From NCBI RefSeq assembly GCF_000814765.1, contig NZ_JWIC01000008.1:7501-71500 (forward strand): a stretch of 64,000 nucleotides of DNA, given 5' to 3'. This DNA comes from Pseudoalteromonas luteoviolacea (lineage in GTDB: Bacteria > Pseudomonadota > Gammaproteobacteria > Enterobacterales > Alteromonadaceae). Positions 57,265 to 64,000 of this stretch are shown here, piece after piece. Each line of letters opens with the position of its first letter. Positions within the stretch are counted from its first letter, which is position 1. The notes below the pieces were generated by a model. The model ran no database searches. It worked only from the letters and a program-made list of their open reading frames with translations, and was not told where the DNA came from. A program made the translations under genes and the position numbers.

Positions 57265-59445
57265 ATGAATGAAGTGAGATTTTCAAGGCAAGTAAAGGAA
57301 GTAAAGTTTGGCGAGTGGGTACTTGATCCTAAACGTCAGAACATTTGCGACGGTGAAGTAACTCGAGAGTTGGAACCGCTATTATTTCGTTTGTTGTGTT
57401 ACCTGATTATTAATAATGAGCAAATCATCACACGGCAAGATTTGGTTGATGATGTATGGAACCAAAACTATGTAGATGATAATGCGATAAATCGTGCAAT
57501 GTCTGAGCTGAGGAAAATTCTAAAATCAGACAAGCAGCGAGGGATTGTGGTAAAAACACATTATCGAAAGGGATATAGCTTTTTCCTTGAGCCAACGATA
57601 ATCTATCACGCTGATGAACTGCCACGCACGCCATCAGAGCCCAATCCTGACAGAAAACCTAAACAGTCACTTTCTATTGAACACAATGAGCTTGAGCAGG
57701 CTAAAGCAAGCCCTGAGCGCAAACTTAGGTTCAATTGGTTTATGGTGTCGTCTTTGGCGATCAGCGCGGCCTTTATTGCAGGAGCAAGTGTTAAGTACTT
57801 CAGTTTATCTAAACAAAGCACCAGCCCGACAACTTTGGTCGCACAAGAGCGACCAATCAAAGAAAGCGTGTTGTCTTGGGTACAAGGTCGTTATACGTTA
57901 CTTAACCTATCACCTAATGATGCTATGGTTGCATACTCTTTTGTGCAAGAGGGGATGAAGCACTTTGCATTAGTTGTAAAAAACTTACAAAATGGACATG
58001 AGCGCAGATTAGGAGAGCCTGGAGCTAATTATTATCCGTTAGGTTGGTCTGCCGATTCAAACACGATTTATTACAGTATTGAAGATGGAAATAAATGCCA
58101 AGTTTGGCAATTGAGTGCGGATTTTAATTCGGGCAACCAATTTCTTTTTGAATGTAATAGCAGTAACGGTATGACGGGTGGGGGGATCAATCAGAATCGC
58201 CTTGTTTACGCCAAAAAAGGCTATCGCAGCCGTGATGAACTCTCTGCGCTTACCAATCGAGACCTCATTTCTGGCGAAGAGTTTCAAATCACATCTCCAA
58301 ATTTAAACTCCTATGGTGATCGATTCTTAGCTTATGTGCCTGAAAAAGAAATTATTTTGTTTGAGCGGCGCCAGTATAATACCAATGAATTGTATATGAC
58401 CGACCCTGATGGGGGAGATCAAATAAAGCTGTATGAAACTCGGTCGCGTATTTGGGCACTCAATTATGACAATGAGACTGACTCTGTCACCTGGTTCGAT
58501 AATAATAAGAATATTGTTTACCGTTTTTCATTAAGAGAAAATAGATTGGTGAATTTACAAAAGCTGGTGACCGAGCAGCCGTATGCAGAATATGAAACGC
58601 TTAGCTCAGGTGATCTGTTAATGACCAGCTACCCGTTCCAGTTGGACGTATATACATTAGATCTGAATAGCAAAGCGTTTGTGCCCTTGGTTAAAACGCC
58701 ACGTGAAGACAAAAATGCCATAAAAGTATCAAATGGATACTTGTTCTTGACTCGAGTAGGTGCGTTGAGCAGGCTCAACTTGAAGCGCAATGATGGTCAA
58801 GTTGAGGTGTTAGGTTTACCAGATGCTGATTTTAAGTCGATTAGATACAACGATAACGCAGATGAATTGCTTGTTCATTATACGCACAAAATAGAAACTT
58901 ATACGCTAAGCAACTTGACGCTAAAACAATCAAAGTCGGTCAATGGTACAATCGTATCTGCAGAATATCTTGATGAAAATGAGATTGGCTATACGGTTGT
59001 GGATGAAACGAAAATCAACAGCAAGGCCTATGTATTATCCAGATTAGATAATAAGGTACGAGAGTTACCAACTCAAAGTGCATTATGGTTAGATCGGATG
59101 AGTGATGATAAGCTCGTTACCCTATCATCAAATGATACCTTATCGGTGTTTGATCTACGTACAGGAAATATCTCATATCAACTGGACCTTCCCGCAGCTA
59201 TTTACCGACATTCAGTTGCAGTATCCAATGAACATATTTATCACTCCGATGGCAAGAGTATATATAAGATTGACTTATCAGCAGCAGGGACTATCGAGCC
59301 TATTTATACTGTCAATGAATCTCAATTTGTCATCGATCAAATCCGCAGCTCAGACTCTGAACGTTTAATCATCGATGTGATTGAAATGGTGGAGAATCAG
59401 TTATTGAAAGTCTCATACGTGGACCCGTCGTTAACTGCACAGTAA
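57265..59445 (+). CDS. CadC/ToxR-like membrane regulator with periplasmic beta-propeller-like domain
   Basis: 726 residues from ATG 57265 (an in-frame GTG at 57229 precedes it; no strong ribosome-binding site at either). Winged helix at about 5-108 (FGEWVLDPKRQNICDGE; VKTHYRKGYSFF), acidic/Pro linker, single TM at about 157-179, then a 540-residue periplasmic part with repeated beta segments (GWSADSNTIYYSIEDGNKC, LYMTDPDGGDQIKLYETRS) resembling TolB/WD-type blades. Predicted to sense a periplasmic signal and bind DNA. The immediately downstream peptide genes are plausible targets, by position only. Confidence 0.85.
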   Translation: MNEVRFSRQVKEVKFGEWVLDPKRQNICDGEVTRELEPLLFRLLCYLIINNEQIITRQDLVDDVWNQNYVDDNAINRAMSELRKILKSDKQRGIVVKTHYRKGYSFFLEPTIIYHADELPRTPSEPNPDRKPKQSLSIEHNELEQAKASPERKLRFNWFMVSSLAISAAFIAGASVKYFSLSKQSTSPTTLVAQERPIKESVLSWVQGRYTLLNLSPNDAMVAYSFVQEGMKHFALVVKNLQNGHERRLGEPGANYYPLGWSADSNTIYYSIEDGNKCQVWQLSADFNSGNQFLFECNSSNGMTGGGINQNRLVYAKKGYRSRDELSALTNRDLISGEEFQITSPNLNSYGDRFLAYVPEKEIILFERRQYNTNELYMTDPDGGDQIKLYETRSRIWALNYDNETDSVTWFDNNKNIVYRFSLRENRLVNLQKLVTEQPYAEYETLSSGDLLMTSYPFQLDVYTLDLNSKAFVPLVKTPREDKNAIKVSNGYLFLTRVGALSRLNLKRNDGQVEVLGLPDADFKSIRYNDNADELLVHYTHKIETYTLSNLTLKQSKSVNGTIVSAEYLDENEIGYTVVDETKINSKAYVLSRLDNKVRELPTQSALWLDRMSDDKLVTLSSNDTLSVFDLRTGNISYQLDLPAAIYRHSVAVSNEHIYHSDGKSIYKIDLSAAGTIEPIYTVNESQFVIDQIRSSDSERLIIDVIEMVENQLLKVSYVDPSLTAQ

Positions 59446-59870
59446 ATACTGTCGACTTTATTGATTATTAAATCCTATCACTTGATTAAGGCAGATACTC
59501 CTGCCTTAATATTCAGCAATGATTACTAATTTGGCGCCTGTATCAAGCTTGATAGCTTAAGTCTAATTTGTCACAAGGCATATGTTTTTGCATCACTGTG
59601 AGTTGTAAATAAGACTTTATTTTGAGTGATTGCTTAATATGCAGGCGTAAGTAGTCGAATAACCACTTGATAAAATATTATGATTCCGAACGTTTTAAAA
59701 AATTAAATTTATATCCATAAAAAACAGTAATTTAAAAAAATATTATTGGAGGTTATATAAGATTTGATAACTACCATAACCCGGTAGGCTTGTTTATCTT
59801 AGAAACATCAACTGCACACAGTGATGCACAGCTTGATACACATAAAATGATTAGTCATAGGAGCGACATA
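59446..59870. promoter_or_regulatory. Leader region of the peptide gene cluster
   Basis: 425 AT-rich bases. A perfect hairpin (ATTAAGGCAG, loop ATACTC, CTGCCTTAAT) at 59485-59510 probably ends the regulator transcript, though no T-run follows. The remainder is very AT-rich (59690-59760) and likely contains the promoter for the peptide genes; GGAG at 59860 is the ribosome-binding site of the first. Confidence 0.5.
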
Positions 59871-60026
59871 ATGTTACTTACTCTTAAAACAAAAAAGCTA
59901 AAAAAACTATCAGACGAAGCAAAACTTGGGCAACAACAAACACAGCAAATCGGTGGTGGCGCTAAGTCGAGTGCTGGCACAAATACAGTGACTGGTACGA
60001 TTATTTTACCAGGCACAGGCTACTAA
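59871..60026 (+). CDS. GG-leader peptide 1 (RiPP-like precursor)
   Basis: 51 residues from ATG 59871 with GGAG seven bases upstream. Leader MLLTLKTKKLKKLSDEAKLG, then QQQTQQIGGG, then AKSSAG, TNTVTG and a tail TIILPGTGY without Cys. The basic amphipathic leader ending in a Gly triplet resembles double-Gly leaders cleaved during export of bacteriocin or class I lanthipeptide-type products. No modification enzyme is visible nearby, so the nature of the product is open. Confidence 0.72.
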   Translation: MLLTLKTKKLKKLSDEAKLGQQQTQQIGGGAKSSAGTNTVTGTIILPGTGY

Positions 60027-60083
60027 AGAATAATAAAAACAATAACAACAACAATAACAATAATAATTTAGGAATAAGAAAGT
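60027..60083. repeat. Low-complexity AAC/AAT tract between peptide genes 1 and 2
   Basis: Runs of AATAATAAAAACAATAACAA type filling the spacer up to the AGGA ribosome-binding site of peptide 2. Prone to slippage; probably an untranslated spacer. Confidence 0.6.
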
Positions 60084-60266
60084 ATGTTGGTATTAAAAAC
60101 TAAAAAGCTCAAACAACTCACCAATGAAGCAACGCTTATGCCACGACAAACTCAGCAAATCGGTGGTGGGCTCAGTACTAACACAAATACAGTGACTGGA
60201 GCCGCTACTTCGACAGCCACGACAACCTCGAAATGCACGACAACCTCGAGAATTTCTGTCCGATAA
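60084..60266 (+). CDS. GG-leader peptide 2 (Thr/Cys-rich tail)
   Basis: 60 residues. Leader MLVLKTKKLKQLTNEATLMP, then RQTQQIGGG, LSTN, TNTVTG and a Thr-rich tail with a degenerate STATTT unit followed by one SKCTTT unit and SRISVR. One Cys. The nucleotide sequence is nearly identical to peptide 3 over the first 39 codons. Ribosome-binding AGGA about ten bases upstream. Confidence 0.75.
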   Translation: MLVLKTKKLKQLTNEATLMPRQTQQIGGGLSTNTNTVTGAATSTATTTSKCTTTSRISVR

Positions 60267-60310
60267 AAGAAAAACAACAAGACATAATAATAATTAAGGA
60301 ATAAGAAAGT

Positions 60311-60511
60311 ATGTTGGTATTAAAAACTAAAAAGCTCAAACAACTCACCAATGAAGCAACGCTTATGCCACGACAAACACAGCAAATTGGTGGCGGGCTT
60401 AGTACGAACACAAATACAGTGACTGGATCCGTGAGTTCGAAATGCACGACAACCTCGAAATGCACGACAACCTCGAAATGCACGACAACCTCGAGAATTT
60501 CTGTCCAATAA
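60311..60511 (+). CDS. GG-leader peptide 3 (three SKCTTT units)
   Basis: 66 residues. The first 39 residues are identical to peptide 2; the tail is SVS followed by three exact SKCTTT units and SRISVQ. Three Cys spaced every six residues in a Ser/Thr background, a layout that would suit thioether or disulfide cross-linking. It is a recent tandem duplicate of peptide 2 (227-base period) with unit-number expansion. Confidence 0.75.
   Translation: MLVLKTKKLKQLTNEATLMPRQTQQIGGGLSTNTNTVTGSVSSKCTTTSKCTTTSKCTTTSRISVQ
60437..60490 (+). repeat. 18-bp tandem repeat, three perfect copies
   Basis: Unit TCGAAATGCACGACAACC at 60437, 60455 and 60473, encoding SKCTTT in peptide 3. A single intact copy lies at 60228-60245 and a degenerate one at 60210-60227 in peptide 2. 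Confidence 0.95.
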
Positions 60512-60561
60512 AAGAAAAACAACAAGACATAATAACAATATCAGTCAAGGAATAAGCGAGT

Positions 60562-60718
60562 ATGTTGGTATTAAAAGCTAAGAAGCTGAAAAAACTATCG
60601 AATGAAGCGTTACTCGGGGCAGGACAAACAAATCGGTGGAGGTACAAACACGGTCACTGGAAAGTCTGAAACGCAGCAAATGACGGTTATTGCATCTCTC
60701 ATAGTGACAGGCATTTAA
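60562..60718 (+). pseudogene. GG-leader peptide 4, broken by a short deletion
   Basis: Leader MLVLKAKKLKKLSNEALLGA from ATG 60562, then GQT. The expected CAGCA of the QTQQI codons is missing (5 bases), so the frame changes and ends at TGA 60667-60669. The lost part is intact in another frame from 60632: IGGG, TNTVTG, then a tail of 18 residues ending IVTGI at a TAA (60716-60718). Unlike peptides 1-3 there is no spacer between GGG and TNTVTG. Confidence 0.75.
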
Positions 60719-60967: not shown

Positions 60968-61519
60968 ATGAACAGCTTATTAACTTTGTCCTTAGCATTA
61001 TCAACCATTCACCCCCCCTTGATTGGTCAACTATATCTGCAAGAACCTGCCATCGAATACTACTTCACACGAGAGTCTGGGATCGCCACAGCCTTTAAAG
61101 ATGTTAAGGTTGGCAAGGTGGTAGAAAAAGGAGATCCTTTGGTTAAGCTTGAGCCCTCTGCGATGGATGTGTCAGACAAAGTGTTCATGGCCAATACGAA
61201 AGGGTACATCGAGTTTATTAATAAAAGAGTGAATACTGAGTCACCTGTTGCTGTGGGGGATCTCTTGCTTAAGGTGTCTTCAAATTATGTTCTTGGTAAT
61301 TATAACTTAGATAAAAGCTATGATTTAAGTGCGCTATCAGGATCTCTCTGGCTCTGTATGCAGTCAAAACCTGTGAAGTTCAACGTGGATAGTGTGCTGA
61401 AGGATAAATTACTGATTTCTGTTGAGCTGAGTCAAATTCATTTCAGTGAACTTGAAAAACTCTCTGAACCCAATCATCTACAATTATTCACTGACAAGCA
61501 CGCGTGTGTACCCGATTAA
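60968..61519 (+). CDS. Small exported protein with a lipoyl-like (HlyD-type) domain
   Basis: 183 residues. The N-terminal hydrophobic stretch (MNSLLTLSLALSTIHPP) may be a signal or anchor. Residues about 35-105 look like a barrel-sandwich hybrid: GIATAFKDVKVGKVVEKGDP and KGYIEFINKRVNTESPVAVG, the two halves typical of membrane-fusion proteins. The coiled-coil hairpin that usually separates them is absent, and there is no beta-barrel domain of normal size. Could be a truncated adaptor of a peptide exporter. No ABC transporter gene is adjacent, so this is uncertain. Confidence 0.6.
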   Translation: MNSLLTLSLALSTIHPPLIGQLYLQEPAIEYYFTRESGIATAFKDVKVGKVVEKGDPLVKLEPSAMDVSDKVFMANTKGYIEFINKRVNTESPVAVGDLLLKVSSNYVLGNYNLDKSYDLSALSGSLWLCMQSKPVKFNVDSVLKDKLLISVELSQIHFSELEKLSEPNHLQLFTDKHACVPD

Positions 61520-62276: not shown

Positions 62277-62960
62277 ATGAAGCCTACTGATCAAGATAGC
62301 TACAATCCATTTATTGATGGTGAATCCATCAGAAAATCTATTGATTTATTTGATACTGTAAAGCAGCCTGAGCAACTAAGGGATGCACTAAAAAAAATCG
62401 CGCAAAACACAGGGTATGAATGCCTGTCATTCATCGATTATGGGCCTATGCCGAATAAGGCTCAACAAACTCAAATTTATGGCCTGTACGAAGAAGAGTT
62501 GGCGCATCATTTTGAGTGTGAAAAAGTCATGTCACATGCAAAGTCAGGGATTAGAGTGAGTGCACTTGCCAAGCTAACAGGTGTGACGAACTTGAATGCG
62601 CATTTATATATTTTGCCACTGCGTGGGATCAAAGGCATTGTGGGGGCGTTAGTATTCAGTATGCCAAATATTAAATCCATACATATCAGTGCTGAGCTTA
62701 TTGATTGGTATTGGACTATTTTGTCGCCGTACTTATTGAGTGCAGCTTTGAGATGCAGGAAGGAAAAGCTCAGTATTACTAAAAGAGAACGAGATTGTAT
62801 GTTTTGGGTTTCAGAGGGCAAAACATCATGGGAGATAAGCCAAATTCTAGGGATCAGTGAGCGGACCGTGAATTTTCATCTCACTAACTGTATTACTAAA
62901 ACGCAGAGTGCGAATCGGCAGCAAGCGATTGCAAGGTGTATTAGAAATAACCTGATTTAA
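62277..62960 (+). CDS. LuxR-type transcriptional regulator (solo)
   Basis: 227 residues from ATG 62277, selected because GAGGGA precedes it; an upstream GTG is less likely. The N-terminal roughly 160 residues have the outline of an autoinducer-binding domain (GYECLSFIDYGP; LPLRGIKGIVGALVFS) but lack the usual Trp/Tyr/Asp/Pro ligand residues. C-terminal LuxR HTH: ITKRERDCMFWVSEGKTSWE, then ISQILGISERTVNFHLTNCI. No luxI-type gene is in the window. It may respond to another ligand or none. Confidence 0.82.
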   Translation: MKPTDQDSYNPFIDGESIRKSIDLFDTVKQPEQLRDALKKIAQNTGYECLSFIDYGPMPNKAQQTQIYGLYEEELAHHFECEKVMSHAKSGIRVSALAKLTGVTNLNAHLYILPLRGIKGIVGALVFSMPNIKSIHISAELIDWYWTILSPYLLSAALRCRKEKLSITKRERDCMFWVSEGKTSWEISQILGISERTVNFHLTNCITKTQSANRQQAIARCIRNNLI

Positions 62961-63698: not shown

Positions 63699-64000
63699 AT
63701 GTCATTGAATACTGTCATTCTTGCTGCGGGTAAAGGTACTCGCATGCGTTCAAAATTACCTAAAGTGTTACACCCTATTGCTGGAAAACCTATGGTTCAG
63801 CACGTAATAGATAACTCGAAAGCGTTAGGGGCAAAGTCGACCAACTTAGTATATGGGCACGGTGGTGAGCAATTAAAAGTTTGTTTGTCTCATAATGACG
63901 TGAACTGGGTGTTACAGGAAGAACAGTTAGGTACTGGTCATGCGGTCGCAGTTGCAAAGCAGCATATAAGTGATGACGATACAGTATTAATTTTGTATGG
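63699..64000 (+). CDS. glmU: Bifunctional GlmU, N-terminal part (cut by window edge)
   Basis: About 100 codons visible from ATG 63699 with AAGGA ten bases upstream. Pyrophosphorylase signature [20 protein letters not shown], then [10 protein letters not shown]-acetylglucosamine-1-phosphate uridyltransferase / glucosamine-1-phosphate acetyltransferase, making UDP-GlcNAc. Normally directly after atpC in gammaproteobacteria; here separated by the accessory block. Confidence 0.97.

Follow-up and report, generated by a model that had tools for sequence, protein, structure and literature searches.

A conserved family of GG-leader peptides in Pseudoalteromonas with a largely Cys-free branch and a probable link to class I lanthipeptide enzymes

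Introduction

Class I lanthipeptides with GG/C39-type leaders have been described in Bacteroidetes by Walker et al. (2020; PMC7268733), and the sections of that paper cited here state that nearness to an enzyme gene was one criterion for choosing training peptides and that the pipeline dropped open reading frames (ORFs) whose estimated core lacked Cys. In the genus Pseudoalteromonas, the class I lanthipeptide system pci of P. citrea was reported by Lee et al. (2023; PMC9993889), its PciA being modified in E. coli, and regions predicted for class III lanthipeptides and RiPP-like products appear in an account of Pseudoalteromonas isolates, as far as the cited portion goes (PMC10456417). Neither a dispersed class I family nor Cys-free class I precursors in Pseudoalteromonas were reported among the matches listed in a non-exhaustive search of the literature, which covered titles and abstract openings. 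Here we analyze a tandem set of short genes from a Pseudoalteromonas genome, together with the neighboring genes and the relatives of both in other genomes of the genus and the order.

Results

A tandem family of GG-leader precursor genes

The window (the whole stretch of DNA analyzed, 64,000 nucleotides long; genome G000, contig C8, positions 7501-71500, with coordinates above 64000 given in continued window numbering) contains four consecutive short genes between 59871 and 60718. The sequence and the ORF list bear out an earlier sequence-only reading in which these were four tandem GG-leader genes, one of them broken, as three are intact and one is frameshifted. Precursor 1 (59871-60026, forward strand; 51 aa from ATG) has a leader ending in QTQQIGGG and the core AKSSAGTNTVTGTIILPGTGY, which contains no Cys. 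Precursor 2 (60084-60266, forward; 60 aa) has a core with many Thr and one Cys, and precursor 3 (60311-60511, forward; 66 aa) has a core with three Cys within SKCTTT repeats. Precursor 4 (60562-60718, forward) carries a frameshift between leader and GG: the frame is lost just upstream of GG with a stop at 60669, and the other frame, which contains IGGGTNTVTG and reaches 60718, holds a remnant core (TNTVTGKSETQQMTVIASLIVTGI) that is also free of Cys.

The shared leader was likewise as that reading had described it: the four leaders are MLLTLKTKKLKKLSDEAKL, MLVLKTKKLKQLTNEATL (in two genes) and MLVLKAKKLKKLSNEALL, QTQQIGGG is common to all three intact precursors, and an AGGA-type ribosome site is found by eye upstream of each of the four genes. 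The start of the core is also common to the copies (NTNTVTG or GTNTVTG). A direct duplication of 227 bp (1.9 copies, 92% matches) contains precursor genes 2 and 3, and an 18-bp tandem repeat, TCGAAATGCACGACAACC, is present in 3.2 identical copies at 60437-60494 (forward) in the core of precursor 3, where it encodes SKCTTT. No family was found for the window precursors in Pfam and NCBIfam at E values up to 10, or for three Cys-type relatives in NCBIfam at E up to 1, and a search of PHROGs (E up to 1) matched just one of the three peptides, at chance level (E 0.16), to a single family of unknown function.

As in class I lanthipeptide precursors, a leader is followed by a Ser/Thr-bearing core. 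The core Cys required for (methyl)lanthionine is present in precursors 2 and 3 and absent from precursor 1 and the remnant of precursor 4, and precursor 1 is therefore not classed as a lanthipeptide. The GG that ends the leader and a C39 peptidase-ABC transporter (C39-ABC) encoded in the same genome are both as expected for GG-leader export. These sequence features suggest that the genes probably encode GG-leader precursors of an exported peptide subject to lanthipeptide-type modification, so the earlier proposal of an exported, possibly modified peptide is supported and given a type.

Class I lanthipeptide enzymes next to the window

It had been noted in the sequence-only reading that LanB and C39-ABC are absent from the window. 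This is true within the window because it is cut inside glmU (63699-64000, forward; named from its sequence and neighbors rather than from a family scan), but the accompanying suggestion that the machinery lies elsewhere or is of an unknown kind does not hold, since genes for HlyD, C39-ABC, LanC and LanB follow glmU on the same contig at 65195-73162, beginning 1.2 kb beyond the window end. They encode an HlyD adaptor (65195-66439; PF13437, E 2.7e-16), a C39 peptidase-ABC transporter (66469-68598; PF03412, E 1.3e-35), LanC (68785-70005; PF05147, E 5.8e-46) and a full-length LanB of 1048 aa (70016-73162; PF04738, E 5.6e-130, and PF14028, E 2.1e-62). LanB scores above the curated cut-off of TIGR03891 in NCBIfam, and the best NCBIfam families of the exporter and the HlyD adaptor were matched below their curated cut-offs. 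Against solved structures, LanB matched 9g04 best, followed by the lantibiotic dehydratase 5ehk and NisB; both the N- and C-terminal domains of a full-length LanB are present, and NisB and other dehydratase structures were matched. LanC matched NisC (E 9e-10), and its WCYG and CHG motifs, which we take to be the zinc-ligand Cys and Cys-His, align with those of NisC, in keeping with a LanC cyclase of the PF05147 family. The best structural matches of the exporter were bacteriocin ABC transporters.

The order glmU, HlyD, C39-ABC, LanC, LanB is complete in 7 of the 12 LanB regions compared. The region of G013 has the full order minus HlyD, which was not called by the ORF script; that of G047 has LanB and LanC and lacks C39-ABC, HlyD and glmU; that of G017 has a different order without glmU; and those of G031 and G103 end at the region edge. 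In the LanB locus of G046, two LanC genes adjoin each other (L121:11020-13656). About 13 kb past LanB (L072:9677-15761 onward; about 86177 in continued numbering), a Tn7-like set is located 3' of a glmS-like gene and includes, by Pfam, TnsA domains, a Mu-type transposase C-terminal domain, TnsC and TnsD/TniQ.

Co-occurrence with LanB and dispersal of leader genes

A 39-aa leader query matched 25 of 99 genomes, among them that of the window, and every one of these 25 belongs to the same genus; the leader is therefore conserved far beyond chance. Among 108 Pseudoalteromonas genomes, 51 contained LanB and 51 matched the leader profile A7. A script comparison showed these two sets of genomes to be the same, the leader being present in none of the 57 LanB-negative genomes (Fisher p 5e-32, a value that is overstated because the genomes are related; the co-occurrence, composition and element counts given here are phylogenetically non-independent). 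A narrower leader profile, A2, matched 49 of the 108 genomes, every one of which was within the 51. The earlier reading had staked its claim on homologues keeping the leader and the GG, and the claim was not refuted on this count.

One LanB copy is present in 49 of the 51 LanB-positive genomes and two copies in the other 2, and the number of leader matches per genome ranges from 1 to at least 75 (median 21; at least 20 in 30 of the 51 genomes), where the highest counts may be lower bounds as up to 75 candidates were scored per genome. Dispersal of the leader genes was examined in two genomes: in that of the window (G000), 28 leader matches are spread over nine contigs, 4 of them no more than 20 kb from LanB, and the 53 leader matches of G043 (E up to 1) are all on contigs other than that of LanB. 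This is the arrangement of a dispersed library, with a single synthetase, many unlinked precursors and one leader. Order-wide, 197 genomes contained LanB in three cases (the window's genome, G203 and, as a partial match, G225) and the leader in two (the window's genome and G203); the partial LanB-family match of G225 (E 1e-18), a genome that has no leader match, counts against the explanation that we prefer below.

A Cys-poor, Thr-rich branch under selection

A local leader HMM (E 1e-3, genes below this threshold being left out) collected 181 precursors from the fetched loci, and their cores were compared according to linkage with the gene for a small HlyD-like protein, HLYD-S, that follows the precursor genes of the window. 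Cys-free cores accounted for 59 of 67 linked precursors (34 genomes) vs 11 of 114 unlinked ones (24 genomes); the other 103 of these 114 sampled unlinked cores have Cys, the unlinked set being a sample in which 65 members come from G000 (21) and G043 (44) and the others from loci retrieved for different purposes. Among the eight linked exceptions with Cys are precursors 2 and 3 from the window as well as a frameshifted gene; these exceptions, too, are evidence against the preferred explanation. At least 2 of the 11 unlinked Cys-free members (G043 C24 7008 and G146 62170) adjoin HLYD-S yet failed the distance rule, and 6 (three each in G004 and G053) are located beside glmU and LanB. Lacking Cys, most members of the branch cannot build ordinary lanthionine rings within the peptide.

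Thr makes up 21% of the linked cores, in which TxT was observed 112 times vs 47 expected (56 distinct cores; none of 2000 shuffles reached 112), whereas no such excess was detected in 109 distinct unlinked cores (46 observed vs 45 expected by shuffling); this statistic is descriptive, as related cores are non-independent, and the composition and TxT counts omit the disrupted or odd cores G000 68062, G123 8960 and G031 61853, which the Cys counts include. Over eight chosen pairs of linked genes (one pair being the in-window duplicates and one gene being used twice), pN/pS was 0.15 for the leader and 0.18 for the core, and repeated NTDTVT units have different codons and identical residues. By these sequence comparisons, both leader and core are under purifying selection.

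A recurrent module around the peptide genes

Neighborhood comparison revealed a recurring module in the order CadC-like regulator, peptide gene(s), HLYD-S of about 180 aa, and LuxR-type regulator; this module and the mostly Cys-free branch had gone unmentioned in the sequence-only reading. In some genomes the module is placed between the atp operon and glmU, in others at a different site, and the complete set of four genes is absent from some loci. The CadC-like one-component regulator (57268-59445, forward; 725 aa; PF00486, E 2e-15, residues 34-105) consists of an N-terminal winged helix, a hydrophobic segment, seen by eye, around residues 157-180 and a large all-beta C-terminal part. Homologues occur in 14 of the first 40 fetched loci, in addition to the window, and the gene lies upstream of the peptide genes in most loci and downstream and reversed in L036. 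AlphaFold models it with low confidence (mean pLDDT 63.8, with the C-terminal part all strand), and hence sensing of a peptide by this protein is a guess. The LuxR-type regulator (62277-62960, forward; 227 aa; GerE domain, PF00196, E 2.1e-17) has homologues in 10 of the same 40 loci besides the window.

HLYD-S (60968-61519, forward; 183 aa) combines an N-terminal hydrophobic stretch, identified by eye, with an HlyD-like barrel-sandwich domain, and two Cys are invariant in 15 aligned sequences. Its model is confident (pLDDT 86.7) and has no long helices. The best Foldseek matches were membrane fusion proteins, with low TM-scores (0.32-0.46 by query length over the 11 rows at E 0.001 or below) and rmsd of at least 9. 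Residues 27-107 superpose on HlyD 5c21 (Z 10.6, rmsd 1.9, 73 residues), biotin/lipoyl domains scoring nearly as high, and VIA-align covered mainly residues 28-107. HlyD-type membrane fusion proteins have both a barrel-sandwich and a helical hairpin; the model of HLYD-S lacks the hairpin, so on its own this protein is unlikely to work as an exporter adaptor, and our guess is that it may be a periplasmic accessory of the regulator or of the exporter.

Strong HLYD-S homologues were found in 35 of the 108 genomes, comprising 35 of the 51 LanB-positive and none of the 57 LanB-negative ones; this count omits weak matches that passed the search threshold (395-435 aa, E 6e-5 to 6e-4; in G121, G019, G009 and G117, and a second one in G143), of which those in G121 and G019 come from LanB-negative genomes. 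The nearest LanB lies within 30 kb in 17 of the 35, at 30-100 kb in 4, at 1.1 and 3.5 Mb in 2, and on other contigs in 12 (multi-contig assemblies). Order-wide, HLYD-S was found in one of 197 genomes, the window's own.

Other genes adjoin the module in several genomes. In two of them, a radical SAM/SPASM gene neighbors the module's LuxR gene (L053:5992-7536 and L035:419-1756), and in L053 this enzyme is accompanied by a 62-aa GG-containing peptide, as if another RiPP type had been plugged in. In G013 and G058, the radical SAM/SPASM gene that adjoins this LuxR gene is nearer to the module than LanB is, which also counts against the preferred explanation. Genes for C39-ABC and HlyD adjoin the module in G046, G031 and G103, an arrangement that would also fit an exported peptide made without LanB. 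Three tandem short peptides with another leader (MVINKKERDMKELNQNEVQGIVGG type) follow a second C39-ABC gene in G031 (L111:8302-9052) and are perhaps another GG-peptide family.

An operator-like element upstream of the peptide genes

About 100 bp upstream of the precursor 1 gene lies an operator-like element, TAAGATTTGATAACTAC (59758-59774, forward). Within three mismatches, TAAGNTTTGATAAYTAC was found in 36 of 37 module upstream regions vs a shuffle mean of 0.3 of 37 (20 sets); 13 of these sites are exact, 12 have one mismatch, 10 have two and 1 has three, and all 36 begin between 82 and 153 bp upstream of the start codon. A 32-bp motif model reached 24.5 bits over the 37 regions (34 genomes) vs 9.1-9.6 in eight shuffled sets, both the model and its shuffles being seeded with the window's own sequence, and the weakest site was that of G031.

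The window element matches TAAGNTTTGATAAYTAC exactly and is the sole match with up to one mismatch in the 6.06-Mb genome, in which the reversed control also gave one. The same search of 12 genomes (8 LanB-positive and 4 LanB-negative) yielded 13 matches vs 7 for the reversed control. Seven of the 13 precede modules, including all three exact ones (G000, G043 and G110), and the remaining six lie outside modules (three in G001 and one each in G056, G004 and G110). A wider regulon was tested for and rejected, as the 7 matches of the reversed control place those outside modules at chance level. With up to three mismatches allowed, no TAAGNTTTGATAAYTAC site was found close to the LanB operon in L071, and therefore nothing ties the regulator of the module to LanB expression. 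K-mer counts upstream of genes in G000 and G043 returned mainly AT-rich words and AGGA words resembling ribosome sites. The adjacency of gene and element suggests that the CadC-like protein may bind this element.

Discussion

The peptide family is real and conserved, and it is explained in kind by the class I lanthipeptide enzymes encoded next door. The genes and the enzymes linked to them, their co-occurrence, the Cys-poor and Thr-rich cores, the module and the element can be read directly in the genomes, and the family is unusual in two respects, namely the many precursors per LanB and a Cys-poor branch that has a regulatory module of its own.

We consider it likely that the precursors are served by a class I lanthipeptide-type system, that the Cys-free products are dehydrated, and that they belong to a local signaling or autoregulatory circuit. 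From the features above we infer leader recognition, dehydration, export and a signaling role. LanB would recognize the Lys/Leu-rich leader of precursors encoded anywhere in the genome and dehydrate Thr and Ser in the core, Cys-free cores included, and LanC would add rings solely where Cys is present, as in precursors 2 and 3. Cleavage after GG and export of the product would then fall to the C39 peptidase-ABC transporter and its HlyD adaptor. With no Cys in the core, precursor 1 and most of its relatives in the branch would leave the cell in linear form, rich in dehydrobutyrine. Around the peptides, the two regulators (CadC-like and LuxR-type), the operator-like element and HLYD-S may form a local circuit into which the product would feed, and since regulators and element surround the peptide genes in this way, a signal or autoregulatory peptide is more likely than a classic lantibiotic. 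We put forward more tentatively, as a rather doubtful extension, that one LanB/LanC pair produces a genome-wide combinatorial class I library and that the Cys-free dehydrobutyrine peptides are pheromones acting through the CadC-like sensor and a private operator.

The alternative that survives best, which we regard as somewhat unlikely, is that the peptides are unmodified GG-peptide signals, whose leader is borrowed for C39 export with no action of LanB and which act as pheromones on the CadC-like regulator. Such signals would suit the predominance of Cys-free linked cores (59 of 67), the presence in three genomes of C39-ABC and HlyD genes adjoining the module and the regulators and element that the module carries. 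However, the module is accompanied by LanB in all 35 genomes, even where the two are 1.1 or 3.5 Mb apart, the conserved residues of the core are hydroxyl residues in a TxT pattern, and Cys-free tandem copies adjoin glmU and LanB in G053 and G004. It appears improbable that the locus is an ordinary lantibiotic cluster for antimicrobial, Cys-containing class I lanthipeptides in which the Cys-free copies are decaying or minor: LanC is present, precursors 2 and 3 carry one and three Cys, and precursor 4 is broken, but 59 of 67 linked cores are Cys-free across 34 genomes, and the purifying selection in the eight tested pairs does not fit decay. Chance low-complexity ORFs arising from tandem duplication rather than genes, as the Lys-rich, low-complexity leader and the local tandem repeats might suggest, deserve almost no credence given a genus-wide leader family, pN/pS of 0.15-0.18 and ribosome sites. 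Another enzyme class as the maker of the peptides was ranked lower because LanB and LanC are linked to the precursors and co-occur with them.

If the class I explanation is true, one enzyme pair for leader genes that number up to at least 75 per genome, and are scattered in both genomes examined, would present the prochlorosin paradox (one enzyme, many products) in a different enzyme class, and a conserved branch of Cys-free precursors would break the rule used by lanthipeptide mining. The Cys filter that the cited sections of Walker et al. describe could explain why this branch was overlooked (PMC7268733). Given the concordance between leader and LanB, both the many-precursor and the Cys-free claims can be tested directly in a marine genus that can be cultured.

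Comparison with known systems

The locus resembles pci of Pseudoalteromonas citrea in being a class I system of the same genus; pci has one precursor, drawn with Cys, and the cited part of that report makes no mention of a dispersed family or a Cys-free module (PMC9993889). It also resembles the class I region of P. viridis BBR56, which has LanB and LanC domains, C39 and transporter genes, together with a nucleotidyl-transferase as would be expected for glmU; that region, in the published text drawn on here, is reported without precursors (the main text never uses the word "precursor"), and no regulatory gene was detected in it (PMC11015633). Thalassomonasins of Thalassomonas are likewise class I lanthipeptides of a marine proteobacterium, and differ, in the portion of their description cited here, in having two clustered, Cys-containing precursors (PMC11433236). 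The systems of Walker et al. share an LxLxKx5L-type leader, in many cases ending in GG, as well as LanB and LanC, often with C39 nearby, but the Cys-free Pseudoalteromonas branch would be dropped by the Cys filter set out in the cited sections (PMC7268733). As for the prochlorosins of marine picocyanobacteria, which combine one promiscuous synthetase and many precursors with a common leader, the likeness lies in this organization (PMC10783134). The family proper, with LanM and Nif11-type leaders, does not accommodate the present peptides, whose linked enzymes are LanB and LanC and which match no Pfam or NCBIfam family. Prochlorosins depend on the class II LanM ProcM and Nif11 leaders, whereas here LanB and LanC are combined with short, Lys-rich GG leaders.
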